This document shows, piece after piece, positions 10,356 to 28,738 of a DNA stretch of 38,895 nt (the stretch's first letter is position 1; every line of letters starts with the position of its first letter). The DNA comes from Acidobacteriaceae bacterium (lineage in GTDB: Bacteria > Acidobacteriota > Terriglobia > Terriglobales > Acidobacteriaceae), in NCBI GenBank assembly GCA_025361625.1, contig JANYKL010000108.1, positions 1-38,895 on the forward strand, given 5' to 3'. The position numbers and the translations under genes are program-made. The notes under the pieces are model-generated. The model did no database searches. It saw only the letters and a program-made list of their open reading frames with translations, and was not told where the DNA came from.

Positions 10356-12926
10356 CTAAGGCTCCGGTTCCTGGCCCACAGCTTCAGCTCCGTCGGATGA
10401 TTTTGCATCGAGGACGCGTTTAAGCAATGTTTCAGCGTCGTCTGCGGGGAGGGTCTCGAGTTGTGCCAGCAACGCCTCCAAGCTCACATTCGGCGCTGGT
10501 CGCGGTCTTCGCCGCAGTGCCGGTGTCCGCGATTTTATCCCGGTTGCCTGCGCTTTTTCTACTTCGACTCCAAGGCCCGCGATCGTCGGCTGCTCAAACA
10601 TTGTTCGCACGGCTAGTTCCACATTAAATTCCCTGCGGATCCTCGACATCACCTGCAACACCAATAGCGAATGCCCGCCCAGCTCAAAAAAATTCTGGTC
10701 CACGCCTACCTCCTTCAGCTTCAAGACCTCCGCCCACATCGCCGCCAGCTTCTGCTCTACCTCCGTCCGCGGCGCCACCACGATCTGCTCCGCCAAGCTC
10801 ACTCCCGGTACCGCCGACAACGCCCGCCGGTTCACTTTGCCGCTCGATAACAGCGGCAACTCATCCACCTTCACAAAACTCGCAGGAACCATGTGTTCCG
10901 GCAGCTGCGTCCGCACATACCGCCGCAACTCTCGCGCACTCGGCGCCTTGCCTTCCTTGCCCACTACATACGCGATCAAGCGCTGCTCTACGCCCGTTCC
11001 ACTCAACTCCACTACCGCTTCCGCTACCCACTCGTGCCGGCCAAGCACCGTCTCAACCTCACCCAACTCGATGCGCATCCCGCGCACCTTCACTTCACTG
11101 TCTAAGCGGCCAAGATATTCCAGTTCGCCAGTCTCTCTCCCCGCCACGTCTCGCGTCACACGCCAGCGCCCCATATCGCCCGTCCGGTAAAGCTTTTCGG
11201 ACTTCTCGGGGGCAATCCTATTCTTCACAAATCGTTCTGCCGTCAACTCCGGCTGCCGCCAGTAGCCGAGCGCCAGCTGCGCGCCCCCTACATAAATCTC
11301 ACCGCGCACTCCGACCGGAACCGGATTCGTCCGCTCATCCAGCACATAAACCTGGCTGTTGCTGGTCGGTCGTCCGATCGGCACCGAGGTCGCCGCTTCC
11401 ATCTCCGCAGTCTCCTCTTCCTCCGCCTTCACCTCGTGCCAAGTCACGTCCGCCGCCACCTCCGACGATCCGTAGATATTCAGCAGCGTCGCTCTCGGAC
11501 ACGCCTTCCTGAACATCTTCGCCAATTCCCACGGCAGCATCTCCCCACCACACCACCACAGCTTCAAGTGCGGTAGCCGCTCCCCTAGATTCGGCGCATG
11601 CTCGAGCAGCGCCCGTAACAGCGGCGGCACCAAAATTATTCGCGTCACCCGGTTATCCCCTAGCGTCCGCACCATCACTTCCGGGTCCAGCACCGCCTCC
11701 TGCGGCAAGATCACGCTCGGAACTCCCGACAAAAGCGGGCCGAAAATCTCACACACCGAATCGACGAATCCTACATTCGTTTTCTGACAGTCCACTTCCC
11801 CTGCCTGAAACGGATAGCGCTCCCTCATCCACTCCATCCGGTTCAAAGCTCCTCGGTGCGTTCCTTCTACCCCCTTCGGACGCCCACTAGAACCCGACGT
11901 GTACAGCACGTAGAGACGCTCCGATTCGCCAGTTGAAGGCTTTGAAGCGAAGTTTGCAATCGGCTCTTTCTTTAACGAATCCTTTTCACGGTCTAGTAAA
12001 ACTAAGTCGCGCTGCGACTCCGGAAGCTTGTTCCGCAACTGGCTGATGGTTATTACGCAGATAACCTCGGTATCTGCAATCATCGAGGCCAGGCGTTCGA
12101 CGGGATAAATGGGGTCGAGCGGAACGTAAGAGGCCCCGGTTTTTAATACTGCGAGCAAGGCAATCGTTAACTCTGGTGATCGATCCAATGACACTCCAAC
12201 TAGCGACCCGGATTGCACACCCTTCTTGCTCAAGAAGTGCGCCAATTGATTTGCCTGTTCGTTCACCTTCGCGTAGCTAAATTCCTGGTCTCGATAAATC
12301 AGCGCGGTTGCATCTGGAGCGCGGGCCGCCTGCTCTTCAAACACTTGATGAACGCGGCCCTGCTTCGAGTAAACAGCCCCGGTGTCATTCCATTCAAAAA
12401 CGGTTCGGTCGAATTCGCTCGCATCCATCAGCTGGATGAGCGCAATTGGCTCGTCGGGGTTCTTCAAGCCGGCCAAAATCAGATTGCGGAAATGCGACAT
12501 CTGGCGAAGAACGGTCGTCATGTCGAACAAGTCTGTGTTGTATTCGAAGCGGCAGTGAAAGCGATCGTCTTCAAACGCCTCTACGGAAAGATCGAATTTG
12601 GCAATCCCGGTCTCAAAGTCCAGCTCTTCCATCTCTAATCCCGAAATTTCGAATATCTGTTTCGGAATGTTTTGAAAGGTGAACATCACCTGGAACAAGG
12701 GGCTGGTATTGATCCAACGTTGCGGGACCAATTCTGGGAGTAATTTTTCGTATGGCACATCCTGATGCGAGTAAGCGTCGAGCGCGTATGACCGAACTTG
12801 GCGCACTAGCTCTCGGAAGGTGATGTTCGGATCGAAGTCGGCACGGAAAACCAGAGTGTTGACGAAAAATCGCCGAGGCGATAGCGAAACGTTACCTGGG
12901 TAACTCTGGCATAAATTTCTCCGCAC
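10356..12926 (-). pseudogene. NRPS module fragment: partial condensation, adenylation, carrier protein
   Basis: An 856-residue frame. Residues ~19-165 are only the second half of a condensation domain (FFVNTLVFRAD, HQDVPYEKL, PLFQVMF); the HHxxxDG half is missing. Residues ~190-700 are a complete adenylation domain with A3 YTSGSSGRPKG (342-352), YRTGDMGRW (~580-588) and A10 Lys in PLLSSGKVNR (K697). A thiolation domain follows with FFELGGHSLL (phosphopantetheine Ser ~753). The tail (~790-856, LEALLAQLETLPADD) is a typical inter-module linker with no thioesterase. Pocket residues aligned to GrsA read V-D-C-L-W-C-I-A-D-K; the usual first Asp is replaced by Val. The A and T domains could still be functional, but the C domain cannot be, and no partner module is nearby. 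The first ATG is only the nearest start in an open frame, not a supported one. Confidence 0.85.
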
Positions 12927-12939
12927 CTAAAATAGCCCT

Positions 12940-15717
12940 ATGGGTTCGTATTCAGTCGGGCCAGTGAGGGCATGGGTGGTAGCTGGTTCGCTGCTGGTGT
13001 GTGCCCAGCTAGTCTTCTCTCTGTCGATGAAGCCGTCATTCCCGTTGACGGCGTTTGGTGACCTCACTCAATGCATTCTTCTACTGGGTGCCTTGCTTTC
13101 TGTTTTTCCGCTTGCCCACCACAATGACGGCCGAACTAGGCTTTTTTGCTGGTTGATGACTTTCGGGTTTGGATTGTGGCTCTCGGCGCAAGTCCTTTGG
13201 ACATACTTTGAAGTTTATCGACGCCAGGAAGTTCCGAATCCGTTTGGGGGGGATATCGTTCTCTTCCTGCATATCGTACCCATGATGGCTGCTTTGGCGG
13301 TGCAGCCTCATGTCCGCCAGGCGGGCCGGTCGGTTCGTGTCGGCTCGCTTGATTTCCTGCTTTTGCTCATCTGGTGGCTATATCTTTATCTTTTTGCCGT
13401 CGTTCCTTGGCAGTATATTTCGCCAAACGAACGGGTCTATGGTCACAGTTTCGATGTCGCGTACCTGGCGGAGCACTTTGTCTTTGTGGCTGCCCTGTTG
13501 CTTTTTTGGCGCAGCAGTCTGGGTTCTTGGAAGACTATTTATGCTCACTGGCTCGGTGCCAGTTGCTTGTATGCCCTCATTTCCGTTATCGCCAGCGTTG
13601 CTATTGATTATCACGTCTATTACACAGGCAGCCTCTATGACGTTCCATTGCTGGCGGCGATGGTTTGGTTTATTGGCGCAGGCTTCGTTACCCGTATGAA
13701 TTTGTATAAAGGGCAACCTGCGGTAACTACCGATATAACGACCGAAAAAGAGCACGCTATCTGGGCTGCGCGAGTGGCGATGGTAGCGGTCTTCTCCACT
13801 CCACTGATGGTAGCCTGGGCCGAGTTTGCTCCAAACACGCCCGGGCGCGTACGTACTTACCGGGTGCTGCTAACGATAGGAACCATGCTAGTAATGGGCG
13901 TCCTGGTTTTCTTGAAGCAGCACCTTTTGGATGGCGTGTTGATCCGGCTACTTCAGGCGTCCCGCCAGTCCCTAGACAATTTGAAACGCCTGCAGGGTCA
14001 GCTTGGGCAGGCGGAAGAAAAGTATAGGGCTATCTTTGAGGATGCGGTTGTTGGAATTTTTCAGATGACACCTGATGGTCGTCCTCTAAGCGTCAACCGC
14101 GCCTTAGCGGAAATGCACGGCTACGATTCTCCGGAACAATTCTTGGCGGAGGTTCCGAACGTAGCACGCCAACTGTTTGTCGATCCCAGCCGCATGGATG
14201 AATTGGAACAGATGCTGGCCAACAACGGCGTTGTGCGTGGTGTCGAAGTGGAGGTTTACCGTAAAGACCGCACGAAAAAGTGGGTGTTGATGAATCGGCG
14301 AGCCGTGCGTGACGCCGAGGGCAACATCGCGCTGCACGAAGGCACGATAGAGGACATCACCGACCGCAAAGCTGCCGAGGAACGGGTCCAATATTTAGCC
14401 TACTATGATGCGCTTACAGGACTGCCCAATCGAACCCTCCTCCAGAATCGATTAACTAAGGCGCTTGCCAGCGCTCGTCGTCAGAACGACAAAATTGCTC
14501 TTTTGTTCCTCGACCTCGACCGGTTCAAAAACATCAACGATTCCCTCGGACATTCGGTCGGCGACCTTCTCCTACAAGGCATCGCAGAACGCCTTAAGAT
14601 ATGGGGACGTGAACAAGACACAGTGGCGCGACTAGGCGGAGACGAATTCCTCATCCTGCTGACTAGCGTAAAGAACATCTCGGACGTAGCTGTTGCGGCT
14701 GAGCGGATGATAAATGCAATGGCCGCAGAATTCGACATTCAAGGGCACTCCCTCAGCATTAGTTGCAGCCTCGGTATTAGCATTTTCCCGGAACATGGTA
14801 CCGACGGCGAAACCCTGATCAAGAATGCCGATGCTGCCATGTATTGCGCTAAGGATTATCGAAACAACTTTAGGTTCTTTACGGAAGACATGAATGCTCA
14901 GGTGGTAGAGCGAATGACTTTTGAGAGCAGCCTGCGACTCGCACTTGAGAAGAAAGAATTCTTTCTGGTGTACCAACCGCAGATGAATATCGGTAGTGGA
15001 AGGATCACTGGATTAGAAGCGCTCCTCCGCTGGCAACACCCGGAATTGGGTCTGGTACCACCTGATAGGTTCATACGAATTGCGGAGAACTGCGGACTGA
15101 TCGTGCAAATCGGCGAGTGGGTGCTCAGGACGGCCTGCAGCCAGGCCCGAAAATGGCAAGACGAAGAGCTTCGCGCAGCATCGATAGCGGTAAATATATC
15201 GGCGGTCCAGTTCCGTCATGAGGGCTTCTGCGAACTCATTAAGCGAGTGCTCGAGGAGAGCGGTCTTGCCCCTAAGTACCTTACCCTGGAACTGACAGAG
15301 AGCCTCTTGCTAGCTAATGGAGATTTGACTCTCGCAGTCCTCCAAGAACTGAAGGCGATGGGAGTGACCCTAGCAATTGACGACTTCGGGACTGGGTATT
15401 CTAGTTTCAGCTATTTGAGACAGTTTCAGGTGAGCAAGCTCAAAATCGACCGTTCGTTCATCCGAGACGTCGCTTCGAATCCTGATGACGCGGCGATCAC
15501 GATTGCGATCATCAGTATGGCAAAAAGTCTTAATCTGAAGGTGATTGCGGAAGGCGTCGAAGACGAAGGGCAAATGTCATTCCTTCGAGCGCATCAATGT
15601 GATGAAATCCAAGGTTTCTACCTAAGCGAGCCATTAAGGGTCGACCAAACTGCGGCTAAACTGCGAGGGGAATATTCCGAAAAGGTCCGAGCAGAAGCAA
15701 GCGGGGGGAACTCTTGA
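12940..15717 (+). CDS. Membrane PAS-GGDEF-EAL protein (c-di-GMP synthesis/degradation)
   Basis: A 925-residue inner-membrane signalling protein. Residues ~1-330 have about eight to nine hydrophobic segments forming a MASE-like sensor. A helical linker (~335-360) leads to a PAS domain (~360-475, YRAIFEDAVVGIFQMTPDG, then VEVYRKDRTKKWVLMN). The GGDEF domain (~485-645) has the intact catalytic GGDEF at 566-570 and inhibitory site RxxD at 557-560 (REQD). The EAL domain (~660-905) has E693-A-L, DDFGTG (814-819) and KIDRSFI. Both enzyme signatures are intact, so it could make or hydrolyse c-di-GMP. The start is 14 bp from the NRPS fragment, head to head, with no obvious ribosome binding site. A PilZ-domain c-di-GMP receptor candidate is encoded at 34141-34479. 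Confidence 0.93.
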   Translation: MGSYSVGPVRAWVVAGSLLVCAQLVFSLSMKPSFPLTAFGDLTQCILLLGALLSVFPLAHHNDGRTRLFCWLMTFGFGLWLSAQVLWTYFEVYRRQEVPNPFGGDIVLFLHIVPMMAALAVQPHVRQAGRSVRVGSLDFLLLLIWWLYLYLFAVVPWQYISPNERVYGHSFDVAYLAEHFVFVAALLLFWRSSLGSWKTIYAHWLGASCLYALISVIASVAIDYHVYYTGSLYDVPLLAAMVWFIGAGFVTRMNLYKGQPAVTTDITTEKEHAIWAARVAMVAVFSTPLMVAWAEFAPNTPGRVRTYRVLLTIGTMLVMGVLVFLKQHLLDGVLIRLLQASRQSLDNLKRLQGQLGQAEEKYRAIFEDAVVGIFQMTPDGRPLSVNRALAEMHGYDSPEQFLAEVPNVARQLFVDPSRMDELEQMLANNGVVRGVEVEVYRKDRTKKWVLMNRRAVRDAEGNIALHEGTIEDITDRKAAEERVQYLAYYDALTGLPNRTLLQNRLTKALASARRQNDKIALLFLDLDRFKNINDSLGHSVGDLLLQGIAERLKIWGREQDTVARLGGDEFLILLTSVKNISDVAVAAERMINAMAAEFDIQGHSLSISCSLGISIFPEHGTDGETLIKNADAAMYCAKDYRNNFRFFTEDMNAQVVERMTFESSLRLALEKKEFFLVYQPQMNIGSGRITGLEALLRWQHPELGLVPPDRFIRIAENCGLIVQIGEWVLRTACSQARKWQDEELRAASIAVNISAVQFRHEGFCELIKRVLEESGLAPKYLTLELTESLLLANGDLTLAVLQELKAMGVTLAIDDFGTGYSSFSYLRQFQVSKLKIDRSFIRDVASNPDDAAITIAIISMAKSLNLKVIAEGVEDEGQMSFLRAHQCDEIQGFYLSEPLRVDQTAAKLRGEYSEKVRAEASGGNS

Positions 15718-17833: not shown

Positions 17834-17851
17834 TAGAGGCGTTTAATCAAA

Positions 17852-18085
17852 ATGAAAACAATGGCTGCCGGTTCTTTTAAGGTTCATTGTCTTGCGGTCA
17901 TGGATGAAGTTCAGGCTAAACGCGAGACCGTCGTGATCACAAAACATGGCAAACCAGTAGCGAAGCTTGTCCCTGTCGAGAAAGGAGCAGATGACATCTA
18001 CAATTTTCTCGCCGGCAAGGGAGTTATCACAGGCGATATCGTTTCCGCTGCCATATCGCATGAAGAGTGGGGTGAACTCAGCTGA
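17852..18085 (+). CDS. Phd/YefM-family antitoxin
   Basis: 77 residues. The N-terminal half is the Phd/YefM fold (MAAGSFKVHCLAVMDEVQ, then VVITKHGKPVAKLVPV), which binds operator DNA as a dimer. The C-terminal half (DDIYNFLAGKGVITGD ... EEWGELS) is the toxin-neutralising tail. It lies just after a promoter with two palindromes and overlaps the toxin gene by 4 bases (CTGA), the usual antitoxin-first arrangement. It should neutralise the PIN-domain toxin encoded next and repress the operon. A degenerate second copy lies at 26569-26797. Confidence 0.92.
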   Translation: MKTMAAGSFKVHCLAVMDEVQAKRETVVITKHGKPVAKLVPVEKGADDIYNFLAGKGVITGDIVSAAISHEEWGELS

Positions 18086-18474
18086 TTCTTGTCGATACTC
18101 ATGTTGTCGCCTGGTTGGCGCTCGACCAAACTCGCCTCTCCAAAAATGCAAGAGTGGCCATCGACAACGCGCGTCAAAACGAGGACGGTTTAGCCATCTC
18201 CGACATTACTCTCCTGGAGTTGGTCACGCTCTCGAGCAAAGGACGCATCCGTCTCGACATCAGCCTCGAATCTTTCCTGCGTGAGGTCGAGACGCGCTTC
18301 ATCATCCTGCCGATAAGCGGCCGCGCCTGTGTGCGCGCCCTCGGACTTCCAGCAACTTATCCAAAGGATCCCGCCGATCGCATTATAGGAGCGACCGCGC
18401 TGGTCGAGGGACTACCTCTGCTTACTGCAGACCGCAGGATCCGACGGTCCCGGGCTCTTCACACGATTTGGTGA
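18082..18474 (+). CDS. vapC: VapC-like PIN-domain ribonuclease toxin
   Basis: 130 residues. The frame has a stop at 18073-18075, and the conserved PIN N-terminus LILVDTHVVAWL begins at CTG 18082, so initiation is most likely at this CTG, overlapping the antitoxin stop. The next ordinary start, TTG 18115, would delete the first catalytic Asp. Acidic active-site residues are present: Asp in VDTH, Glu in LLELVTL, and the Asp pair in KDPADRIIGATA, followed by LPLLTADRRI. VapC toxins are Mg-dependent RNases that cut tRNA or rRNA. Only 24 bp separate its stop from the FemAB gene start, so co-transcription with the exosortase block is possible. Confidence 0.9.
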   Translation: MILVDTHVVAWLALDQTRLSKNARVAIDNARQNEDGLAISDITLLELVTLSSKGRIRLDISLESFLREVETRFIILPISGRACVRALGLPATYPKDPADRIIGATALVEGLPLLTADRRIRRSRALHTIW

Positions 18475-18498: not shown

Positions 18499-19536
18499 AT
18501 GAAAGTCTGGCAGATTGATCCACTCCTCGATGATCGCTGGCCGGACTTTTTGGAGTCGAACCCTCCCGCTTCGGTGTTTCACACGAGAGGGTGGTTGCAA
18601 GCTTTGCGGCAAACTTATGACTATCAGCCTGTCGTTTACACCACGAACGAACCGGGGCAGAGGTTGACCCACGGCTGGGTCTTCTGCAGCGTTCGGAGCT
18701 GGATTACAGGTAAACGACTTGTTTCCCTTCCCTTCTCCGACCACTGTGACCCGCTAGTCGAGTCGCCCGAGCAACTTCATGTACTGGCAGACTCGCTCAC
18801 AAAGTCCCAGCCCGGCGAAGGCTGGAAATACATCGAGTGCCGGCCTCTGAATGCAAAACTTGGCTCTACGGACTTTGTGAAGTTTGACGAATTCTGTTTT
18901 CATACCCTCGATCTTTCTAGGGATCTGAGCGAACTGTTTCGCGGCTTGCATAAGGATTCCACCCAACGAAAAATTAAGCGCGCAGAGCGAGAGGGCGTCT
19001 CATTCGCGGAAGGTTCATCTGAAAAGCTGCTTGATCACTTCTACCAACTCTTAGTTGTGACCCGGCGTCGTCACAGCCGTTTGCCTCAACCGCGCAAGTG
19101 GTTTTCGATTCTGGCCGGGTGCATGGGCGACAAGCTGGTGGTTCGAGTTGCTTACTTCAATGGAACGCCGATCGCAAGTATCGTCACGCTTCGATTCAAG
19201 ACGACACTGACTTACAAATACGGTTGCACGGATGAACGATTTTTTCGGCTTGGAGGAATGCAATCGCTTCTCTGGCGAGCAATTGAAGTGGCAAAGCAGT
19301 CAGGACTATTGGAATTTGACTTAGGGCGCTCAGATGCAGGTGATCGCGGCCTGATTGTTTTCAAGAATCGACTCGGAGCCAGGCCACTTGCGTTGAACTA
19401 TTTCCGGTTTCCCGCAAGAGAAAAAGCGCTGTCGTTTGCCACTGATGCTACAAGATATTTCGAAAAATACATTCCGTTTACTCCAACCAGGATACTCGTG
19501 GGCGGAGGTAAACTGTTTTATAAACATTTTGGCTAG
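18499..19536 (+). CDS. FemAB-type acyltransferase, exosortase-associated
   Basis: 345 residues of the FemAB/GNAT-like family that accompanies exosortase/PEP-CTERM loci. N-terminal motif PPASVFHTRGWLQALRQTYDY (~20-40), then LVSLPFSDHCDPLVE, a basic helix STQRKIKRAEREGVSF and the GNAT-like core LLVVTRRRHSRLPQPRKWF ... TYKYGCTDERFFRLGG ... LEFDLGRSD. Family members transfer an aminoacyl or acyl group in envelope or exopolysaccharide synthesis; the exact substrate here is unknown. The predicted location is cytoplasmic. It starts the run of exosortase genes, 24 bp after the toxin gene and 68 bp before the deacetylase. A 63-base stretch of it (18997-19059) recurs as a fragment at 8841-8903. Confidence 0.85.
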   Translation: MKVWQIDPLLDDRWPDFLESNPPASVFHTRGWLQALRQTYDYQPVVYTTNEPGQRLTHGWVFCSVRSWITGKRLVSLPFSDHCDPLVESPEQLHVLADSLTKSQPGEGWKYIECRPLNAKLGSTDFVKFDEFCFHTLDLSRDLSELFRGLHKDSTQRKIKRAEREGVSFAEGSSEKLLDHFYQLLVVTRRRHSRLPQPRKWFSILAGCMGDKLVVRVAYFNGTPIASIVTLRFKTTLTYKYGCTDERFFRLGGMQSLLWRAIEVAKQSGLLEFDLGRSDAGDRGLIVFKNRLGARPLALNYFRFPAREKALSFATDATRYFEKYIPFTPTRILVGGGKLFYKHFG

Positions 19537-19604: not shown

Positions 19605-20987
19605 ATGCCAGTCACAGGCGAGCTGGAGCGAGTGCTCATCGAACGCTATCGATCTCCAGCGGCGCTGCTGAGACTGGGCCTGATCGATTCCCTTTCCGAG
19701 AGAAAAGATTTCTTTCGTTACGGTCCCCGCATAACTTGTTACGGGCGAATGGCGCAGGGCGCCAGCACATTGAGTTCGCAGTACGATGCGGCGCAAGATT
19801 CGGTTGCCCGAGACTCGGTTCCCTTCCTGTCTTTCGATCCCTCGGAAGTGGTCGACAATCTCCGCATGGAGCGGTACGTGCGAGCGGACTCTGTGATTCG
19901 TTCGACCGCGAAAAAAGTCTATTACTCAACGCGACCATTGTTACCCTTTTCGTTTCGAAAACAAATTCAAAAGTTTCAGGTGCGGGACTGGGAGAAGATT
20001 TCCTTTCCTAGTTGGCCGCTTGACACAACGGTCGAAGACCTGTGCGAAGCGCTGCTTCTCGACATACTAAGAGCGAGCGGCCATGATCGAATACCGTTCA
20101 TCTGGTTCTGGCCGGAAGGCAAGTCCAGTTGCTTCGTCATGACCCATGACGTAGAAAGTAGCATCGGTAAAGATTCCTCGTCTGCGTTGATGGACCTCGA
20201 CGATTCGTTCGGAATCAAGGCCTCGTTTCAGGTTGTTCCACAAGGGCGATACGCGGTGACACCTGAGTATTTAGACTCGATTCGCAATCGCGGATTTGAA
20301 ATAGGGGTTCAAGATTTCAACCACGACGGCAAATTGTTTGATGATCGCAGCGAATTTCTGCGACGAGCGGCCTTGATCAACCAACGTCTGCGCGATTGGG
20401 GTGCGAAGGCATTTCGATGCGGCGTGCTCTATCGCAAGCCTGACTGGTACGACGCGTTTGAGTTTTCGTTCGACATGTCGGTCCCGAATGTCGCGCATCT
20501 GGATCCTCAGCGCGGGGGCTGTTGCACGGTGATGCCTTATTTCATTGGCAACATTCTGGAACTGCCGCTGACAACCACGCAAGACTACACGCTGGTTCAC
20601 CTTCTTAAGCAGCGCAGCATCGATCTTTGGCGGCGGCAAATCGGCCTGATCTTAAGCAAAAATGGATTTGCCAGTTTTATCGTGCATCCTGATTATCTGC
20701 ATCAGGGTGATACTCGGTCACTCTACAAAGAGTTGCTCGGATATATCAGGGAACTAAAAACCACCGCGAACATTTGGTGCACGCTTCCATCCGACGTCGA
20801 TGATTGGTGGCGGGCGCGTAACAAAATGACGCTTATACCAGATGGGAACGAATGGAAAATCGTGGGAGAAGGTAGCGAGCGCGCCTGCGTTGCGTATGCT
20901 CGGAATATCGACGGCAAGTTAGCCTACGAATTGCACAGCGCGTCGGCTTTAACTCGACCCGCAAGCAGACCCGCAGCCCAGTCGTGA
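19605..20987 (+). CDS. Polysaccharide deacetylase-like protein
   Basis: 460 residues. The NodB-like region begins at FVMTHDVESSIGKD (catalytic Asp ~182, with H181 and E184 around it), continues with SFQVVPQGRYAV, EIGVQDFNHDGKLFDD (where the family usually has the metal-binding His pair), FRCGVLYRKPDWYD and ASFIVHPDYLHQGD near 360. The ~140 residues before it are a helical extension. There is no signal peptide, unlike many deacetylases. It probably removes N-acetyl groups from an exopolysaccharide intermediate linked to exosortase sorting. FemAB lies 68 bp upstream and the exosortase 19 bp downstream, so the three genes look like one transcript. Deviations in the His pair leave metal-dependent activity uncertain. 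Confidence 0.82.
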   Translation: MPVTGELERVLIERYRSPAALLRLGLIDSLSERKDFFRYGPRITCYGRMAQGASTLSSQYDAAQDSVARDSVPFLSFDPSEVVDNLRMERYVRADSVIRSTAKKVYYSTRPLLPFSFRKQIQKFQVRDWEKISFPSWPLDTTVEDLCEALLLDILRASGHDRIPFIWFWPEGKSSCFVMTHDVESSIGKDSSSALMDLDDSFGIKASFQVVPQGRYAVTPEYLDSIRNRGFEIGVQDFNHDGKLFDDRSEFLRRAALINQRLRDWGAKAFRCGVLYRKPDWYDAFEFSFDMSVPNVAHLDPQRGGCCTVMPYFIGNILELPLTTTQDYTLVHLLKQRSIDLWRRQIGLILSKNGFASFIVHPDYLHQGDTRSLYKELLGYIRELKTTANIWCTLPSDVDDWWRARNKMTLIPDGNEWKIVGEGSERACVAYARNIDGKLAYELHSASALTRPASRPAAQS

Positions 20988-21006: not shown

Positions 21007-21924
21007 ATGAGTGCCTTGTCATCGAAAGCGAAATTTCGCCGAGCGACACAACACGCGCTTTTTGCGTGCTTACTGCTCGCCTCTATGCTGGCTTTTTGGG
21101 CGCCGCTTGAAAGTTTAGCTCGTTTCGCTTTTGAGCACGACTGGGGAACTCATATTTTCTTTATCGTTCCGTTGAGTCTTTATTTTATCTATCTCAAGCG
21201 GAACGACATCGTATCCAGCCGTCAGGCGAACCCTGTCTTAGGTTCCATTTTGCTTGCGGTCGCAGCGATCTCAGCATGGATCGCGCATGCGCTTCGGGCT
21301 GAGGCTAGTGGTCGGCTGTCACTTCAGATCCTGACTCTGATCATGATCTGGCTCTCCGCATTTATCCTTTGTTACGGGGTGGAGGCGTTTTTGCAGATGC
21401 GTTTCGCCCTGCTCTTGCTACTTTTACTGGTGCCGATCCCCGGGATCGTAATTGATAAAGCTGTTTTCTGGCTTCAGGGAGGGTCAGCAGCGGTCGCTTA
21501 TTGGTTGCTGCGGCTTTTCGGAGTGCCCACGATGAAGGAAGGTTTCATCCTGCATCTGCCGGCGCTCGACCTCGAAGTGGAAAAAGAGTGCAGCGGCATC
21601 CGCTCGAGCCTTGTGCTTTTCGTAACGACGCTGGTCGCTGGGCAGTTTTTTCTACGTTCTTTTTGGTCAAAGAGCCTGCTGTTGTTCACGATTTTGCCCA
21701 TCGTTATCATTAAGAATGGCTTCAGAATCGTCTCCATCGCACTCCTGACGTTGTATGTAAACCGCGGGTTTTTGCATGGCTGGCTTCACAGGTCTGGGGG
21801 TATCGTCTTTTATTTGTTAGGGTTACTGGCTCTTTACCCGGTTATCCAGCTTCTGCGGGGGCTCGAAAACGTCGCGAATCAATCGCGAACAGAAGCCATG
21901 CCGGTGCCAGCTCCCCGATCGTAA
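21007..21924 (+). CDS. Exosortase (membrane transpeptidase-like sorting enzyme)
   Basis: 305 residues with about eight hydrophobic segments. All three proposed catalytic residues are present in their motifs: Cys195 in KECSGIRSS, Arg240 in KNGFRIVSI and His261 in WLHRSGG. Exosortases cut PEP-CTERM tails at the outer face of the inner membrane and pass the protein on, probably to a surface glycan. This protein ends soon after the last hydrophobic segment and lacks the EpsI/DUF3485 extension seen in some relatives; no separate EpsI gene is nearby. The start ATG is 19 bp after the deacetylase stop. Its likely substrates are the two genes that follow. I cannot place it in a named Xrt subclass. Confidence 0.9.
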   Translation: MSALSSKAKFRRATQHALFACLLLASMLAFWAPLESLARFAFEHDWGTHIFFIVPLSLYFIYLKRNDIVSSRQANPVLGSILLAVAAISAWIAHALRAEASGRLSLQILTLIMIWLSAFILCYGVEAFLQMRFALLLLLLLVPIPGIVIDKAVFWLQGGSAAVAYWLLRLFGVPTMKEGFILHLPALDLEVEKECSGIRSSLVLFVTTLVAGQFFLRSFWSKSLLLFTILPIVIIKNGFRIVSIALLTLYVNRGFLHGWLHRSGGIVFYLLGLLALYPVIQLLRGLENVANQSRTEAMPVPAPRS

Positions 21925-21931
21925 AGCTTGT

Positions 21932-21951
21932 GGTTGCAAGCTCTTGCAACC
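21932..21951. promoter_or_regulatory. Perfect 9-bp inverted repeat upstream of the PEP-CTERM pair
   Basis: GGTTGCAAG (21932-21940), CT, CTTGCAACC (21943-21951), followed at once by a third half-site GTTGCAA (21952-). It lies 7 bp after the exosortase stop. There is no T-run, so an operator is more likely than a terminator. A TTGACA at 21971-21976 could be a -35 box, but the -10 region is weak. Confidence 0.5.
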
Positions 21952-22068
21952 GTTGCAAAAATTATCAGACTTGACAGATTTCCTGAGCGTATTAAAGTAA
22001 CGCTATGTGGTACTGCCTCTTTGTGGGGCAAAGTCCGCTTATCTTTTTCCCCCACGAAAGAAGCCGAA

Positions 22069-22761
22069 ATGAATCGAATTTTGCGGTTTAGCGCCATAGC
22101 GATCACGTTAGTCCTGGCCGTGATTGGGTTCGCTATGCCTTCCTATGCCGACAGCCAGTCTGTGTCGGGATGCAGCAACTGTAACGGATACACGTTCCAG
22201 GCGAATCTTACCCCGACTGGCAGCAACACTTATTCGCTTACTTACACAATCACGAATGTCAGCGGCGCCAGCGCGAATCCCTATAACTGGTCTATCACCT
22301 TGTTCGGAAACGGAAGCAACGTTACCTCTGCTACGAATCTCACGATGTCGGACGGGAATCAGGGAGCCTACTTAGCGGCGGACGGCAAATCAAACAACGG
22401 TAACGCTAATTGCAATACAGCGATTGGTGGGGCCGTATGCGTTGAACCGAACGGCACAGGCACATTATCAAAGCTGAGCAAAGGCCAATCTTTAACGTTT
22501 ACGATGGACATCACGTGCTCGAACTGCACGGAACTGGCGAACTGGATTTTTCTTTCTTCGGGAAACTGTCTGGACAATGCACGAGCAAATTGCTATGCGA
22601 TCAGCACCGAGGGTACGGGAACGCCTACCGGCGTGCCTGAGCCATCAAGTTGGGGCCTATATGCCGTAACGCTTTTGACTTTGGGGGCCTTCTTCTGGAA
22701 GTTCGCACGCAATCATGGGGCGGCAAACCTCCAGCCCATACTAAGAGAGATGACTAGATGA
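22069..22761 (+). CDS. PEP-CTERM protein, eight-cysteine type, copy 1
   Basis: 230 residues. Signal peptide 1-27 (ITLVLAVIGFAMPSYA). The mature part is rich in Asn, Ser and Thr with beta-sandwich-like sequence and eight Cys at 35, 38, 115, 124, 150, 153, 167 and 175, including GCSNCNGY and ITCSNCTEL. The C-terminus is a PEP-CTERM sorting signal: VPEPSS at 189-194, a hydrophobic helix 195-211, then basic KFAR. I chose ATG 22069 because the signal peptide starts there; upstream codons in the same frame (to 21928) cross the operator-like repeat and are not protein-like. It is the presumed substrate of the exosortase 144 bp upstream. The next gene overlaps its stop (ATGA). The function of the mature domain is unknown. 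Confidence 0.9.
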   Translation: MNRILRFSAIAITLVLAVIGFAMPSYADSQSVSGCSNCNGYTFQANLTPTGSNTYSLTYTITNVSGASANPYNWSITLFGNGSNVTSATNLTMSDGNQGAYLAADGKSNNGNANCNTAIGGAVCVEPNGTGTLSKLSKGQSLTFTMDITCSNCTELANWIFLSSGNCLDNARANCYAISTEGTGTPTGVPEPSSWGLYAVTLLTLGAFFWKFARNHGAANLQPILREMTR

Positions 22762-23441
22762 GTCGAATCTCGCACTTCTGCTCGATAGCATTGCTTCTCG
22801 CTGCGGCCGTGACTGTGCTTGCTTTACCTGGTTATGCCGATAGCCAGTCCCAGTCGGGTTGTTCCAATTGCAATGGGTACAGCTTTCAGGCGAATTTAAT
22901 CCCTACGGGGCTCAACACTTTCAAACTTTCCTACACCATCACCAACGTGAGTGGAACTGCGAATCCTTATAGTTGGTCAATCACTCAGTTTGGCCCGGCC
23001 AATACAATTTCGTCGGTTTCAAATCTGAAAGTGTCCGACGGCAGTCAAGGCGCGTACACCTTGTGGGGTGGCAAATCGAATACAGGGAACAACTGTAATG
23101 GTGCGGTAGGTGGTGCGATTTGCATTGACCACGCCGGCAGTGGGTCTTTAGCTAAGCTTGCCCAGGGTCAATCCCTCACCTTCACGATGGATGTTACCTG
23201 CTCGAATTGTTGGGAACTGGCAGAATGGATTTTTCTCTCCGGCAACTGCCTCTCTAACGACAAGTCACACTGCTATGAGATCAGCAATGGAGGCTACGGA
23301 GGCACTACGGGCGTTCCCGAACCCTCGAGTTGGGCTCTTTACGCGGCCACCTTGGCAATGTTGTCTTTCGCGTATTGGAAATTCGGCAGGCCAAGAAGCG
23401 GGGCGACCCCTCGAAGGCTTGCTTACAGTACAGTTCAGTGA
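22758..23441 (+). CDS. PEP-CTERM protein, eight-cysteine type, copy 2
   Basis: 227 residues, a tandem paralogue of the preceding gene, which it overlaps by 4 bases. Signal peptide 1-27 (ALLLAAAVTVLALPGYA). All eight Cys of the mature part are conserved (35, 38, 113, 122, 148, 151, 164, 172), as are QANL-PTG, YTITNVSG and QSLTFTMD. The sorting signal is VPEPSS (186-191), a hydrophobic helix, then KFGRPR. The conserved even number of Cys in an exported protein suggests four disulfides. Strict translational coupling suggests that both proteins are needed together, perhaps as a heteromer; this is inference. A terminator follows 29 bp after the stop. Confidence 0.9.
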   Translation: MSRISHFCSIALLLAAAVTVLALPGYADSQSQSGCSNCNGYSFQANLIPTGLNTFKLSYTITNVSGTANPYSWSITQFGPANTISSVSNLKVSDGSQGAYTLWGGKSNTGNNCNGAVGGAICIDHAGSGSLAKLAQGQSLTFTMDVTCSNCWELAEWIFLSGNCLSNDKSHCYEISNGGYGGTTGVPEPSSWALYAATLAMLSFAYWKFGRPRSGATPRRLAYSTVQ

Positions 23442-23470: not shown

Positions 23471-23497
23471 CCCGGCCCAACAGCCGGGATTTTTTTG
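23471..23497 (+). terminator. Rho-independent terminator after the PEP-CTERM pair
   Basis: CCCGGC (23471-23476), loop CCAACA, GCCGGG (23483-23488), then A and seven T residues. It separates the exosortase/PEP-CTERM genes from the TPR gene. Confidence 0.85.
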
Positions 23498-23617: not shown

Positions 23618-25894
23618 ATGAATGCACGTCGCCTGAAAACCGTTCTTATCTGCCTGTGCTTTGGCACCCTCTTGACCGAATGCAGCCGCGACCCAAACGT
23701 CCGGAAACAAAAATATTTTGAGAGCGGCAATCGGTATTTTGAGAAGGCTAAATACGCCGAGGCGGTTGTCGAATACTCGAGCGCGATCCAGATAGACCCA
23801 AATTTTGCCGTTGCACATTTCAAACTTGGGGAGAGTTATTTAAAAGAGCAACGCTTTCCGGAGGCATACCGGGAACTGCGTCGAACCATCGAACTCGACC
23901 CCCATAACGCCAGCGCAGCATTCGATTTGGGATTGCTGATGATAGCGGGGCGGTCGTACAAAGAGGTGCCGCCGCTCGCCGCCGGAATGTTGGAAGCCGA
24001 TCCACAAAATGCGAAGGCGCATTTGTTATTGTCTGAACTCAACCGCTCCGAGGGCAACATGGCCGTGGCGTTCGAGGAGATTGAGCGAGCGATCGTGCTG
24101 GCGCCACGGCAGGCTGACTTGTACGTCCAGCTTGCTACCCTGCAAAGCACGAGCGATCGAACGCAAGCAGCCGAAGATAGCCTCAAAAAAGCTCTGGAAA
24201 CCGATCCGAAGTTCATTCCTGCGATACAGGGCCTAGCCAGCCTGGAGGAGACAGAAGGCCGCTTGGATGACGCTGAGAAGCAGTTGCTGTACGCGATTCA
24301 GATCGATCCGAGCGCCGTTGAACTTCGTAAAGATCTGGCCCGTCTCTACCGGAATGAACATCGTTTCGGCGAAGCTGAGCAGCTCATGATTCGGGCCAAA
24401 AGGGAGTTGGGGCAGAATGGTACCTCTTACCGAATTTTAGGCGAGTTCTATAACAACTCCGGCGATGCGGATAAGGCACTGAAAGAATTCGCGGCCATCT
24501 CGAGCGCTCATCCGGACGATGTTCAAACCAAGGAAGATTACATTCGTCTTCTGCTTTCTAACAACAAGCCCGAAGAGGCTAGCAAACTGAACGACGAAGT
24601 TTTGGCCCAGCATCCGAAAGACGCGGGCGCTTTGATCATTCGCGCATCGATATTGAATTCGCAGTCTAAATTTTCGGAAGCGGCCAGGCTGTTGGAAGAT
24701 GCCGTAAAAGACGTTCCAGAAAATGCGTACGCTCATTATCAGCTCGGCGTAGCTCTGAGCAGGACTGGAAATGCGAAACGCGCCGAGCAGGAATGGTTTC
24801 AGGCCGCGAAACTGGCGCCTGACATGATCGAGGCGCAGGTAGCCCTGGGGCAAGTCGCTCTTTCGACCGACGATTCGACACTTCTCCGTGACACGGCAAA
24901 CACCCTCATTCGAAATAATTCGTCGGACCCGCGTGGCTATATTTTGCGGGCCGCGGCTGAGGCCAAGGGCAAACAATCCGCTGCCGAGGAACAGGATCTG
25001 GTCAAAGCGATTCAAGTTGAACCGGCGAACCCTACAAGCTACTTTGCCATGGGCAATTTCGAGCAACGTCAAGGCAAAGATGACGCAGCGCTAAGATTTT
25101 ACGAGCAAGCTTTGGATCGCGATGCTAATTACTTCCCTCCCTTGACGAGCAGCGTCGAAATTCTGATGCGCGGAAAGCAAAACGCGAAAGCGCTCGACCG
25201 TGTACGAGCGCAGACCACCCGCGCTCCGAACAATGACGCCGTCTATTTCTTACTCGGCGGCCTTCAGATCGCAAATCAGGATCTCCCCGGTGCTGAGCAA
25301 TCCTTGCAAAAAGCGATTCAGCTCAATCCATCCAATACCGATGCCATCGTTCTGCTTTCAAAAGTGGCAATGGCGCGTGGCGAAGGGGATAAGGCTTTAG
25401 CCATTGCCTACAAATCAATTTCGGACTCGCCAAAAAGGGTGGACGCTTATTTCTTTGCCGGAACGATGGAGGAATTGAGTGGACGGCCGCAAAAGGCCGA
25501 AGAGGTCTATCGCAAGGCGCTGCAGGTCGACTCGAGTTACGCTCCGGCAGCTAATAACCTTGCGTACTTGATGCTTGAAAACGGGGAGGACATTAATGTC
25601 GCGATCTCACTCGCTCAACTGGCGCGACAAAAAATGCCTGATTCACCGGGTGCGGCGGACACCTTGGCATGGGCCTATTACCAGAAAGGCCTCTATGATT
25701 CCGCGGCCGATCTCTTGACGGAAGCGGTGCAGAAAGCTCCTGATAACGCCACTTACCACTACCACTTAGGAATGATATATCGAAAGCAGAAGAACGACGC
25801 GGCGGCGAAAAAGCAATTACAGCGAGCGCTTCAGATTAATCCTAACTCGCCCGCCGCGGGAGAAATTCGCAAGACTCTGACCGAAATGGGTTAG
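23618..25894 (+). CDS. Exported TPR-repeat protein of the exosortase locus
   Basis: 758 residues. The start ATG 23618 gives a proper signal peptide (LKTVLICLCFGTLLTEC), possibly a lipoprotein with Cys22, although Glu at -1 is unusual for a lipobox. The rest is about 18-20 TPR units, for example YFEKAKYAEAVVEYSSAIQIDPN, EQRFPEAYRELRRTIELDP and GRPQKAEEVYRKALQVDSSYAPAANNLAYL. Large TPR lipoproteins of this kind (PrsT-like) accompany XrtA/PEP-CTERM systems and are thought to act as periplasmic scaffolds for export or assembly. It lies after a terminator, so it has its own promoter somewhere in 23498-23617. A copy of its 3' end survives as a remnant at 36069-36129. Confidence 0.88.
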   Translation: MNARRLKTVLICLCFGTLLTECSRDPNVRKQKYFESGNRYFEKAKYAEAVVEYSSAIQIDPNFAVAHFKLGESYLKEQRFPEAYRELRRTIELDPHNASAAFDLGLLMIAGRSYKEVPPLAAGMLEADPQNAKAHLLLSELNRSEGNMAVAFEEIERAIVLAPRQADLYVQLATLQSTSDRTQAAEDSLKKALETDPKFIPAIQGLASLEETEGRLDDAEKQLLYAIQIDPSAVELRKDLARLYRNEHRFGEAEQLMIRAKRELGQNGTSYRILGEFYNNSGDADKALKEFAAISSAHPDDVQTKEDYIRLLLSNNKPEEASKLNDEVLAQHPKDAGALIIRASILNSQSKFSEAARLLEDAVKDVPENAYAHYQLGVALSRTGNAKRAEQEWFQAAKLAPDMIEAQVALGQVALSTDDSTLLRDTANTLIRNNSSDPRGYILRAAAEAKGKQSAAEEQDLVKAIQVEPANPTSYFAMGNFEQRQGKDDAALRFYEQALDRDANYFPPLTSSVEILMRGKQNAKALDRVRAQTTRAPNNDAVYFLLGGLQIANQDLPGAEQSLQKAIQLNPSNTDAIVLLSKVAMARGEGDKALAIAYKSISDSPKRVDAYFFAGTMEELSGRPQKAEEVYRKALQVDSSYAPAANNLAYLMLENGEDINVAISLAQLARQKMPDSPGAADTLAWAYYQKGLYDSAADLLTEAVQKAPDNATYHYHLGMIYRKQKNDAAAKKQLQRALQINPNSPAAGEIRKTLTEMG

Positions 25895-26403: not shown

Positions 26404-26568
26404 AGAAACAGCTCCTCTTGTTGGGCGGATTGAACGCCAACACTTCCTATCCCGTTTATCGGGCGGCCCAGCTTAGGTCCCGCCCGGCTCCCTGTCAAGC
26501 ACCGTGCCGCTACGGGTCCAACCCATCGCGAGGGCGTGTCGAAAAAACCATAGTTAGGGAGCTCCGAA

Positions 26569-26797
26569 ATGAAAACAATGGCTGCAGGTTCTTTCAAGGT
26601 CCTCTTGCGGTCATGGACCAGTTCAGGCCAAACGCGAGACCGTCGTGATCACAAAACACGGCAAACCGGTAGCGAAGCTTGTCCTTGTCGAGAAAGGAAC
26701 AGACGAAATCTACAATTTTTCTCGCCGGCAAAGGTGTTATCACCGGCGAATCGTTTCACCTGCCATATCACGTGAAGAGTGGGGTGAACTCAGCTGA
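26569..26797 (+). pseudogene. Degenerate second copy of the Phd/YefM antitoxin gene
   Basis: Nearly the same DNA as 17852-18085, from MKTMAAGSFKV through VVITKHGKPVAKLV to the CTGA overlap. It has a 4-base loss after AAGGTC, a 1-base loss at GACCAGTTC, an extra T in the AATTTTT run and a 1-base loss before ATCGTTTC. The operator region has decayed too: only ACCATAGTTAG remains, without a -10 box. It cannot make the antitoxin. Confidence 0.9.
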
Positions 26798-27148
26798 TTC
26801 TTGTCGATACTCTGTTGTCGTTTGGCTGGCGCTCGACCAAGCTCAGCTCTCCAAAAATGCAAAAGCGGCCATCGCACAATGCACGTCAAAACGAGGACGG
26901 TTTAGCCATCTCCGACATTACTCTCCTGGAGTTGGTCACGCTCTCGAGCAAAGGACGCATCCGTCTCGACATCAGCCTCGAATCTTCCTGCGTGAGGTCG
27001 AGATGCGCTTCATCATCCTACCGATAAGCGGCCGCGCCTGCGTGCGCGCCCTCGGTCTTCCAGCAACTTATCCGAAGGATCCCGCGGATCGCATCATAGG
27101 TGCGACCGTGCTGGTCGAGGGAGTACCTCTGCTTACTGCGGACGATGC
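26794..27148 (+). pseudogene. Degenerate second copy of the VapC toxin gene
   Basis: Follows the dead antitoxin with the same CTGA overlap and matches 18082-18435. A base is lost in GATACTC(A)TGTTG, removing frame right after the first catalytic Asp, one is gained near GCACAATGC and one lost in GAATC(T)TTCC. The 3' end diverges after CTTACTGCGGAC. Because the shifts offset each other, an artificial 203-codon frame (26679-27290) runs through both dead genes; it is not a real protein. The part VEMRFIILPISGRACVRAL ... KDPADRIIGAT is still readable. Confidence 0.9.
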
Positions 27149-27706: not shown

Positions 27707-28738
27707 ATGCATAAGCCTTTATTGTTGTCTTTGTTTTTGACTTTTTTGTGCGCCAGTTCTTTCGGGGGAGTCTGGATTACTTCGCCGGCGAACGGAGCTA
27801 CGGTTAACGGGCCGGTCAACTTTATCGCGAATTCCAACACTTCGTGCGCTGGCGGCATGGCCACCATGGGAATATATCCGGCGCCTTATCAGCTAAGCTT
27901 TGTTGGCAAAGGTTCGAACCTCAACCACTCTCTTCAGCTGAATAACGGAAAATACGACGTAGTGATCGTGGCTTGGGATTATTGCGGTGGCGCTTCGACC
28001 GCTGCGGTGAGCATTAATGTCACCAACAATGGCGGCGGCGGTGGCAACTCGTTTACCGATCTGCAGAATAGCGGCGGATGGGCGGGTGCAGGGCAGGGCG
28101 CGCCGGACTTCATCGACTGCTCTTCGTGCTCGAAGGTTGCGTGGTCATGGGAGGAAGGCGTCAATTCGCCATCGCTTTCAGGCCGTGCCGCGAAATACAA
28201 CATGTGGGGCAGCGGACCTTACTGGGACGTGCTGTTTAATAACCATCTAATCGGCGACGGATCATCGCAAGGCATGCTGGATCACAATCACACGATTGTT
28301 CCCACCCTTCATGATTTCACCTATGACGTTTACTTTTTCGGAAGCAACCTGGGTGCGTCGCAGGCTCTTGAGTTCGATCTCAACCAGTTCTTCGACGGCA
28401 TGGGCTTCATCTGGGGCCATGAGTGCAGAATCGCGGGCGGCCACGAGTGGGATATCTGGGACAACATCAATCAGCATTGGGTTCCGACCGGAGTCAAATG
28501 CTATCCCAACAACAACGCTTGGAATCACCTGACCATCCATGTGCAGCGTACTTCGGATAATCACCTGCTCTACCAGACCATTACCTTCAACGGACAAACC
28601 ACAAACCTGAATCGCTATTACAGCCCTAAACCAACTCCGGGATGGTACGGCGTGACGGTTAACTACCAGATGGATGGCGACAGCAGGCAGACACCTTACT
28701 CGATTTACCTCGATCAACTCACCTTTTCGTACCAATGA
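27707..28738 (+). CDS. Secreted Ig-like plus lectin-like (concanavalin-type) protein
   Basis: 343 residues with a good ribosome binding site (GGAGAA, 6 bases before the ATG). Signal peptide ~1-21 (LLLSLFLTFLCASSFG). Residues ~22-105 form an Ig-like domain (VWITSPANGATVNGPVNFIANS ... VVIVAWDYCGG). After a Gly-rich linker (GGGGG, ~108-112), residues ~115-343 form a beta-jelly-roll that is paralogous to the protein at 32520-33278 (shared pattern VNSPSLSG, ALEFDLNQF, NHWVPTGVKCYPNNNAWNHL, SIYLDQLTFSY). Related acidobacterial proteins are of unknown function; a glycan-binding or surface role is inferred from the fold. Two terminators follow directly. Confidence 0.85.
   Translation: MHKPLLLSLFLTFLCASSFGGVWITSPANGATVNGPVNFIANSNTSCAGGMATMGIYPAPYQLSFVGKGSNLNHSLQLNNGKYDVVIVAWDYCGGASTAAVSINVTNNGGGGGNSFTDLQNSGGWAGAGQGAPDFIDCSSCSKVAWSWEEGVNSPSLSGRAAKYNMWGSGPYWDVLFNNHLIGDGSSQGMLDHNHTIVPTLHDFTYDVYFFGSNLGASQALEFDLNQFFDGMGFIWGHECRIAGGHEWDIWDNINQHWVPTGVKCYPNNNAWNHLTIHVQRTSDNHLLYQTITFNGQTTNLNRYYSPKPTPGWYGVTVNYQMDGDSRQTPYSIYLDQLTFSYQ

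Follow-up and report, generated by a model that had tools for sequence, protein, structure and literature searches.

The question raised by this locus is which enzyme acts on two adjacent, cysteine-rich proteins with a C-terminal sorting tail, and whether these proteins stand alone or belong to a larger system. The locus lies in the 38,895 nucleotides of contig JANYKL010000108.1 (GCA_025361625.1) of an Acidobacteriaceae bacterium, and this whole stretch is called the window in the following. Since the tail is what usually reveals an exosortase substrate, and since one genome may encode two or more exosortases, it is often unclear which enzyme cuts which protein. The window genome itself harbours two exosortases of different clades, one encoded directly upstream of the cysteine proteins and a second, EpsI-linked one on contig C43. 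We consider it likely that the cysteine proteins are substrates of the neighbouring exosortase, and that they represent one version of a promoter-defined system with swapped cargo.

Both putative exosortase substrates are encoded on the forward strand, the first at 22069..22761 (ORF of 230 amino acids) and the second at 22758..23441 (227 amino acids), so that the genes overlap by ATGA. As stated in the original prediction they are tandem paralogues, with 60% identity over the full length. Identical residues are distributed unevenly, with 106/158 aligned positions in the mature part, 13/27 in the signal region and 18/42 in the tail. For the mature part pN is 0.21 and pS 0.81, and because relatives exist in three other genomes as well, the two frames represent real genes and not chance ORFs. 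The N-terminus of both proteins is hydrophobic, in agreement with the signal peptides that had been predicted and that were called here, too, from hydrophobicity. Cysteines are found at positions 35, 38, 115, 124, 150, 153, 167 and 175 of the first protein and at 35, 38, 113, 122, 148, 151, 164 and 172 of the second, which has one extra cysteine (8) in the signal region. The predicted pattern of eight cysteines with two CSNC motifs thus holds for the order and for the motifs, which are identical, while the supposedly equal spacing is off by one to two residues. Just 3′ of the genes lies a terminator-like hairpin (23471..23488, forward strand), behind which come one A and seven T. A hairpin follows the cysteine gene directly in all four loci, the U run being four long in L017 and L018 and three long in L016; terminator-like patterns in the region are not above shuffles (9 versus 10.6), and for L017 an equally good fold is reached by 4 of 200 shuffles.

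By eye the tails of both proteins show the PEP-CTERM architecture of PEP motif, helix and basic end; the VPEPSS announced for each of them is present and is accompanied by a hydrophobic stretch and basic residues. The PEP-CTERM tag models PF07589 and TIGR02595 give 12.1 of 20.7 and 10.7 of 16 bits for the second protein, a weak match that was rejected, and no match for the first. The mature domain had been said to match no nameable family, and indeed no Pfam or NCBIfam family is reached above its cut-off. Two candidates were rejected: the DnaJ zinc domain, which is weak and below cut-off (E 0.008-0.0095), and XDP1 (NF041927), which reaches 15.4 bits versus a cut-off of 125 with the first protein and covers only the C-terminal tail region. 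A tblastn search of plasmids with the second protein gave no match, and a PDB sequence search gave a single match with E 0.27, which was disregarded. Structure prediction, suggested earlier as a check, brought little: the two models (A4 and A7) are beta-rich and weak, with a pLDDT of only 62. Foldseek with the first model found nothing in the PDB at E 0.001 or better, the top matches being appendage-type sandwiches at E 0.03. Because of the low pLDDT and this Foldseek result no fold is claimed for the domain.

The exosortase is encoded at 21007..21924 on the forward strand and carries the predicted Cys195, Arg240 and His261; the first cysteine gene begins 144 nt downstream. It matches PF09721 with E 1.1e-39 (136.8 bits versus a gathering cut-off of 25.7) and the general model TIGR02602 with 108.6 versus 105.55 bits, and is XrtC-like, although none of the listed named subtypes, among them XrtA, B, C, D, V and W, is reached above its curated NCBIfam cut-off. 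The best of these is TIGR04151 with 150.7 versus 300 bits, and XrtA reaches 123.7 versus 208. Three more genes on the same strand complete the cassette. A FemAB-like GNAT-fold acyltransferase (18499..19536; PF13480, E 2e-15) matches TIGR03019, the XrtA-associated FemAB, with E 4.2e-24, but with only 85 of the 260 bits of the cut-off. It is followed by a conserved protein (19605..20987) without a Pfam match that is possibly polysaccharide-deacetylase-like (NCBIfam PdaB, weak, E 0.22). Homologues of the FemAB-like gene are found in exosortase-bearing loci of 11 other genomes, and the same number was obtained for the conserved cassette protein. Downstream of the cysteine genes lies a PrsT-like TPR protein (23618..25894), which is clearly related to TIGR02917 (E 1.7e-83) with 281 bits, under the cut-off of 312.2.

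Other parts of the window deserve mention in their own right. A direct repeat (17850-18432 and 26567-27143, 91.5% over 585 nt) brackets the whole exosortase cassette. It consists of a PIN-domain toxin gene (PIN E 4.8e-13 in copy 1) and an antitoxin-like frame, the second copy looks frame-shifted, and the segment may have been duplicated or moved by way of this repeat, to which no match was found in the other loci at E 1e-5 over 3 kb. A non-ribosomal peptide synthetase module (condensation, AMP-binding, carrier) is arranged divergently from a GGDEF-EAL c-di-GMP protein at 10356-12926 and 12940-15717. At 27707-28738 a probably secreted protein of 343 amino acids with weak Ig-like similarity is encoded, for which no family is above cut-off.

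Searches of the order (200 genomes) and the family (398 genomes) revealed clear relatives of the cysteine proteins in three genomes with one match each: Candidatus Sulfotelmatobacter RYN_10 (G196, locus L017), Acidobacteriaceae RYN_4 (G103, L016) and Acidobacteriales GZL_HYHR_2_bin.60 (G118, L018), where the gene is cut. A peptide-pattern scan of a collection of 84,980 species with one pattern recovered the same three relatives among 61 matches. In L016 the order is FemAB-like gene, deacetylase-like gene, exosortase, cysteine gene, PrsT-like gene; in L017 it is exosortase, cysteine gene, PrsT-like gene; in L018, a locus truncated by the contig end, the partial cysteine gene precedes a PrsT-like TPR gene. 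The PrsT-like homologues directly after the cysteine gene in L016 and L017 are 58% and 61% identical to that of the window. Among 83 loci compared the cysteine homologue occurs only in the window, L016 and L017, and 27 other exosortase loci of the family have no cysteine gene downstream within up to 1.5 kb (less at contig ends, e.g. L029).

Exosortases were matched at E 1e-8 in 150 of 300 family genomes. In a tree of 63 rows the EpsI-linked sequences (14 rows, Exo2) lie on one side of a branch with 100/100 support, and within the other group the window, L016 and L017 form a branch of three, also 100/100. The closest relatives of the window exosortase, 52% and 49% identical, belong to the two cysteine-bearing genomes for which the exosortase sequence is available; the next full-length sequence reaches 42%, a value exceeded by some partial matches. 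The cysteine gene adjoins the same exosortase branch in both other genomes with upstream DNA. The idea of a dedicated enzyme-substrate set is supported by this branch, the cysteine gene, the PrsT-like gene and a common promoter block, all shared with L016 and L017.

A distant relative of the domain was found in L012 (G218, 1393-2157; E 1.9e-14), in which GKSNNGN..CN..VGGAVC is kept and which ends in an MPEPSS tail; its genome (89% complete) shows no exosortase at E 1e-8. Weak matches (E 1e-3 to 1e-4) came from G161, G005 and G149, and the one in G161 was rejected as a relative, being confined to the tail of another tagged protein. A profile of the mature domain, run against 396 genomes sampled from the phylum, matched the own genome and otherwise gave a single weak match of 52 residues. 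A wide occurrence of the domain in proteins lacking a sorting tail, which would have spoken against the original prediction, was not seen in the genomes searched; the cysteine domain is rare in what was searched.

The gap between the exosortase and the cysteine genes contains a conserved, promoter-like block (21933-21998) that the earlier reading does not mention. The cysteine proteins are only 41-52% identical between loci, although the block agrees almost letter for letter in the window, L016 and L017. Its about 70 near-identical bases comprise a dyad GTTGCA-N6-TGCAAC, two to three nucleotides, TTGCAnAAATTATCAGnCTTGACA, 16 nt and TAnAGT. On the forward strand of the window the dyad, a probable regulator site, is at 21933..21950, the core element TTGCAAAAATTATCAGACTTGACA at 21953..21976, ending in the -35 hexamer (21971-21976), and the -10 hexamer TAAAGT follows 16 nt after the -35 at 21993..21998. 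The core was absent from 100 shuffles of the window.

With up to three mismatches the core has 34 sites, distributed over 31 of the 329 family genomes, compared to 1/329 for a reversed-pattern control. At 30 of these sites an ORF with a sorting tag follows downstream (tails of the VPEGG, VPEES, VPEYS or VPEPS type), 29 of them recognised by script and one by eye (VPEYSG, G122), and one ORF lies behind two sites; the background from random positions in similar DNA was 131 of 3540. Without a tagged ORF are the site in G173 and those in L065, L068 and L092, which have three mismatches and neither dyad nor -10. The dyad and the -10 were outside the search pattern, yet they recur. The dyad is perfect in 14/34 sites and has at least 10 of 12 bases in 20/34 (shuffled rate 0.0008), and TAnnnT is located at exactly 16 nt in 24/34 sites versus 8/1178 positions further downstream. 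Over 31 sites the mean majority fraction amounts to 0.92 for the core, compared to 0.36-0.38 for the flanks; these base counts and the sigma-54 test described below omit L065, L068 and L092, while the headline counts cover all 34 sites. A form shorter by one base precedes tagged genes in five exosortase-positive genomes (G318, G260, G067, G151, G195). With a stricter pattern a phylum sample of 246 genomes gave only the own genome and L200, which we judged to be a chance match because it has no tag and simple repeats downstream. With the pattern TTGCAANNNNTTGCAA three genomes yielded the element site, and further places matched in G000 and G196 (one each) and G118 (two), the reversed control of this pattern giving 0, 0, 1 and 1 in G000, G103, G196 and G118.

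The mature parts of the proteins behind the element are mostly unrelated, and some comprise only 13-43 residues. Clustering of 31 entries (30 proteins, as one ORF of G122 is included twice) resulted in 15 BLAST groups: the largest has 11 entries (10 proteins) of the C[DT]D[FY] type with 177-205 amino acids, followed by a cysteine-rich group of four, a glycine-rich group of three, a pair and 11 singletons, whose mature parts include ones of 13, 14, 32 and 43 residues. These lengths are approximate, the signal end having been set by hydrophobicity, and the number of cargo families is uncertain since the clustering is unable to handle very short parts. Very small putative substrates, in which a mature part of about 13-43 residues separates the signal peptide from a VPEGG tail, are encoded in L104 (6305-6562, G087), L099 (G344), L103 (G170), L097 (G285), L161, L169, L170 and L128. 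Tagged genes also occur in tandem, with one element per gene, in L107 (6374-7862, G148) and L095 (G122), which parallels the pair of the window.

At E 0.5 sorting-tag models recognised 0/10 tagged proteins in NCBIfam and 0/10 in Pfam (together 11 different proteins, and not all of those known). We propose VPEGG/VPEES as a new tag class, outside the NCBIfam and Pfam sorting-tag models tried. A VPEGG profile built from 19 tails gave strong matches (E 1.5e-5 or better) in 8 of 110 family genomes, all of them exosortase-positive; we regard three weaker matches (E 8.5e-4 to 0.01) as chance. This corresponds to 8/23 positives versus 0/87 others (Fisher 1e-6; the sample was reconstructed from the listing order). 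Four of the eight genomes (G148, G167, G070 and G242) had contributed rows to the profile, so that the independent matches are those in G067, G151, G195 and G237; with the contributing genomes removed, 4/19 positives versus 0/87 others are left (Fisher 8e-4). The tails of the window are VPEPSS and not of the commoner VPEGG class, and the profile has no match in the own genome.

The element is linked to one side of the exosortase tree. We called a genome positive if it had a match of at least 100 bits to the window exosortase that was closer to this enzyme than to the EpsI-linked one, which applies to 48 of 300 genomes. The core is present in 21 of these 48 and in at most 8 of the 252 others (Fisher 4e-13), three of these up to eight being sites taken as chance; among the 27 positives without a core match five carry the shorter form. 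Outside the 300-genome sample the clade is also found in the element genomes G344 and G357. Of all 31 element genomes 23 have the clade, three have only a chance-like site with three mismatches, and five have only the other clade (G205, G138, G355, G329, G173), which means either a pairing that is not strict or gaps in the assemblies.

In several genomes the neighbourhood of the element points to polysaccharide export. A PrsT-like gene adjoins the element and its tagged gene in seven genomes (G122, G261, G198, G341, G357, G148, G167). In eight genomes (G344, G170, G087, G337, G194, G124, G070, G215) a NusG-type antiterminator and an NtrC-type regulator follow, and in all but G215 this pair is followed by a Poly_export gene within the available stretch. 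A LuxR/GerE-type response regulator is encoded within 2 kb in G344, G173, G341, G170, G087 and G215. Within the neighbour families of export operon and LuxR/GerE regulator, one member each was identified by Pfam. Such neighbours concern 13 of 19 element genomes whose wider neighbourhood was compared, plus a partial stretch of G173, and none was recognised in G285, G329 and G242. Among the window proteins scanned, which are not every ORF, neither a polysaccharide-export gene nor such a regulator was recognised. The system is probably tied to exopolysaccharide.

Several other explanations have to be weighed. The cysteine proteins might be ordinary PEP-CTERM proteins that are cut by the second, EpsI-linked exosortase, their proximity to the first being incidental. 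The window genome has three other canonical PEP-CTERM tails elsewhere, and one of them (L053, VPEPSTWLLASSG) resembles the VPEPSS tails of the pair; the five element genomes with the EpsI-linked clade only would fit as well. However, the cysteine tails stay below the PEP-CTERM cut-off and do not have the [GA]TGL membrane part seen in the other two canonical tails, and adjacency to the same exosortase branch is kept in both other genomes with upstream DNA, which makes this explanation rather improbable. The original prediction had also considered a heteromer. The tight coupling by the ATGA overlap and the similarity of the mature parts would suit an obligate heteromer of the two paralogues, but three of the four genomes have one copy (that of G118 being cut), for which reason the heteromer is not supported, and the tandem tagged genes of G148 and G122, each behind a separate element, suggest simple duplication. 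We therefore regard an obligate heteromer as quite doubtful.

The role of the cysteines and the nature of the block can be discussed in the same way. Two CSNC motifs and the faint DnaJ likeness could indicate that the CxxC pairs bind metal or perform redox exchange instead of forming structural disulfides. In an alignment of five sequences (L018 partial), however, L017 shows C-x3-C instead of CxxC at the first pair, and the last pair, which is 167/175 in the first protein, is missing as a pair in L017 and L018 but kept as a pair in the others, as a local disulfide would predict. This joint loss suggests that the last pair forms a local disulfide and keeps the predicted disulfide-rich domain plausible, while a metal or redox function seems unlikely. 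As to the block, instead of a sigma-70 promoter it could represent an RNA element or a sigma-54 site of the kind described for PEP-CTERM genes of Proteobacteria (PMC1569441). The dyad is foldable (-11.3 kcal/mol), and some GG-N10-GC is nearby in 7/31 sites. In addition, the TTGCA of the block resembles a -12 element. Against this, TGGCA-N7-TTGC is found in 0/31 sites and a GG 12 nt upstream of the core GC in 0/31, so that a sigma-54 promoter (-24 GG/-12 GC) is rejected for the sites tested. The TAnnnT at a fixed distance of 16 nt from TTGACA speaks against this explanation as well, and the dyad, lying upstream of -35 and -10, would be outside the expected transcript. A sigma-54 site or an RNA element is accordingly very improbable.

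Returning to the neighbouring exosortase as the processing enzyme, we infer the following course from the conservation of the cassette, the promoter block and the tag and from their co-occurrence. The cysteine pair would be transcribed from its own sigma-70-type promoter with the upstream dyad, and the proteins would be exported by Sec via their signal peptides, cut near the VPEPSS tail by the exosortase encoded beside them, and presented at the cell surface or within the exopolysaccharide; there, the beta-rich domain may be stabilised by local disulfides. In the family the same promoter would drive tagged substrates whose mature parts vary by lineage, with promoter, tag class and exosortase clade being kept. 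A LuxR-type response regulator, which may bind the dyad, would control the block.

If promoter, tag and enzyme are kept while the displayed part changes freely and can shrink to 13-43 residues, one has to ask what an exosortase substrate must do beyond carrying its tag. It is conceivable, and we suggest it tentatively, that one shared promoter serves few substrates and that the essential act is the attachment of a peptide to the surface or the exopolysaccharide, as a polymer cap or anchor, with the domain as exchangeable decoration and a LuxR-type regulator switching the system on together with polysaccharide export. The substrates are in any case marked by their promoter, including proteins missed by the tag models tried, so that a pairing of enzyme, substrate and regulator can be made from sequence and then tested.

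A promoter mark for exosortase substrates is a known idea. In the part of Haft et al. 2006 (PMC1569441) considered here, 99 of 167 PEP-CTERM genes of Proteobacteria are described as having a common sigma-54-type site in front of them, which among the genomes treated there only Proteobacteria share. That PEP-CTERM/EpsH system, as far as this part of the paper goes, resembles ours in the C-terminal tag, an EpsH-family enzyme with Cys, Arg and His, a PrsT-like TPR protein, the link to polysaccharide loci and a common upstream regulatory sequence before many substrates. It differs in that a sigma-54-type site and a separate upstream motif are found there and a sigma-70-like promoter with a different dyad here; moreover, the exosortase described here belongs to another clade and has no EpsI beside it in the loci seen, the tags are mostly VPEGG/VPEES, and there is usually one element per genome.

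In the open-licence literature searched we found no description of the element, its sigma-70-like form, the lineage or the tag class. None of that literature combines exosortase, PEP-CTERM and Acidobacteria, and a search for VPEGG and XrtC returned no VPEGG among the matches listed. The XrtC/VPDSG-CTERM subtype (TIGR04151) is the best-scoring named model for the exosortase, but at half of the curated cut-off, and the tags here are not VPDSG. The exosortase-dependent surface protein XDP1 (NF041927) and the first cysteine protein are alike in the tail region only, and the latter is not a member. The best functional precedent, by analogy and from the part of the study considered here, appears to be Aquincola tertiaricarbonis (PMC9850573), where the PEP-CTERM gene pepA also lies upstream of prsT, though with an RpoN-dependent promoter. 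Both genes are involved in floc formation there, and in an rpoN1 mutant a larger share of the polysaccharide was cell-bound when PepA was overexpressed.
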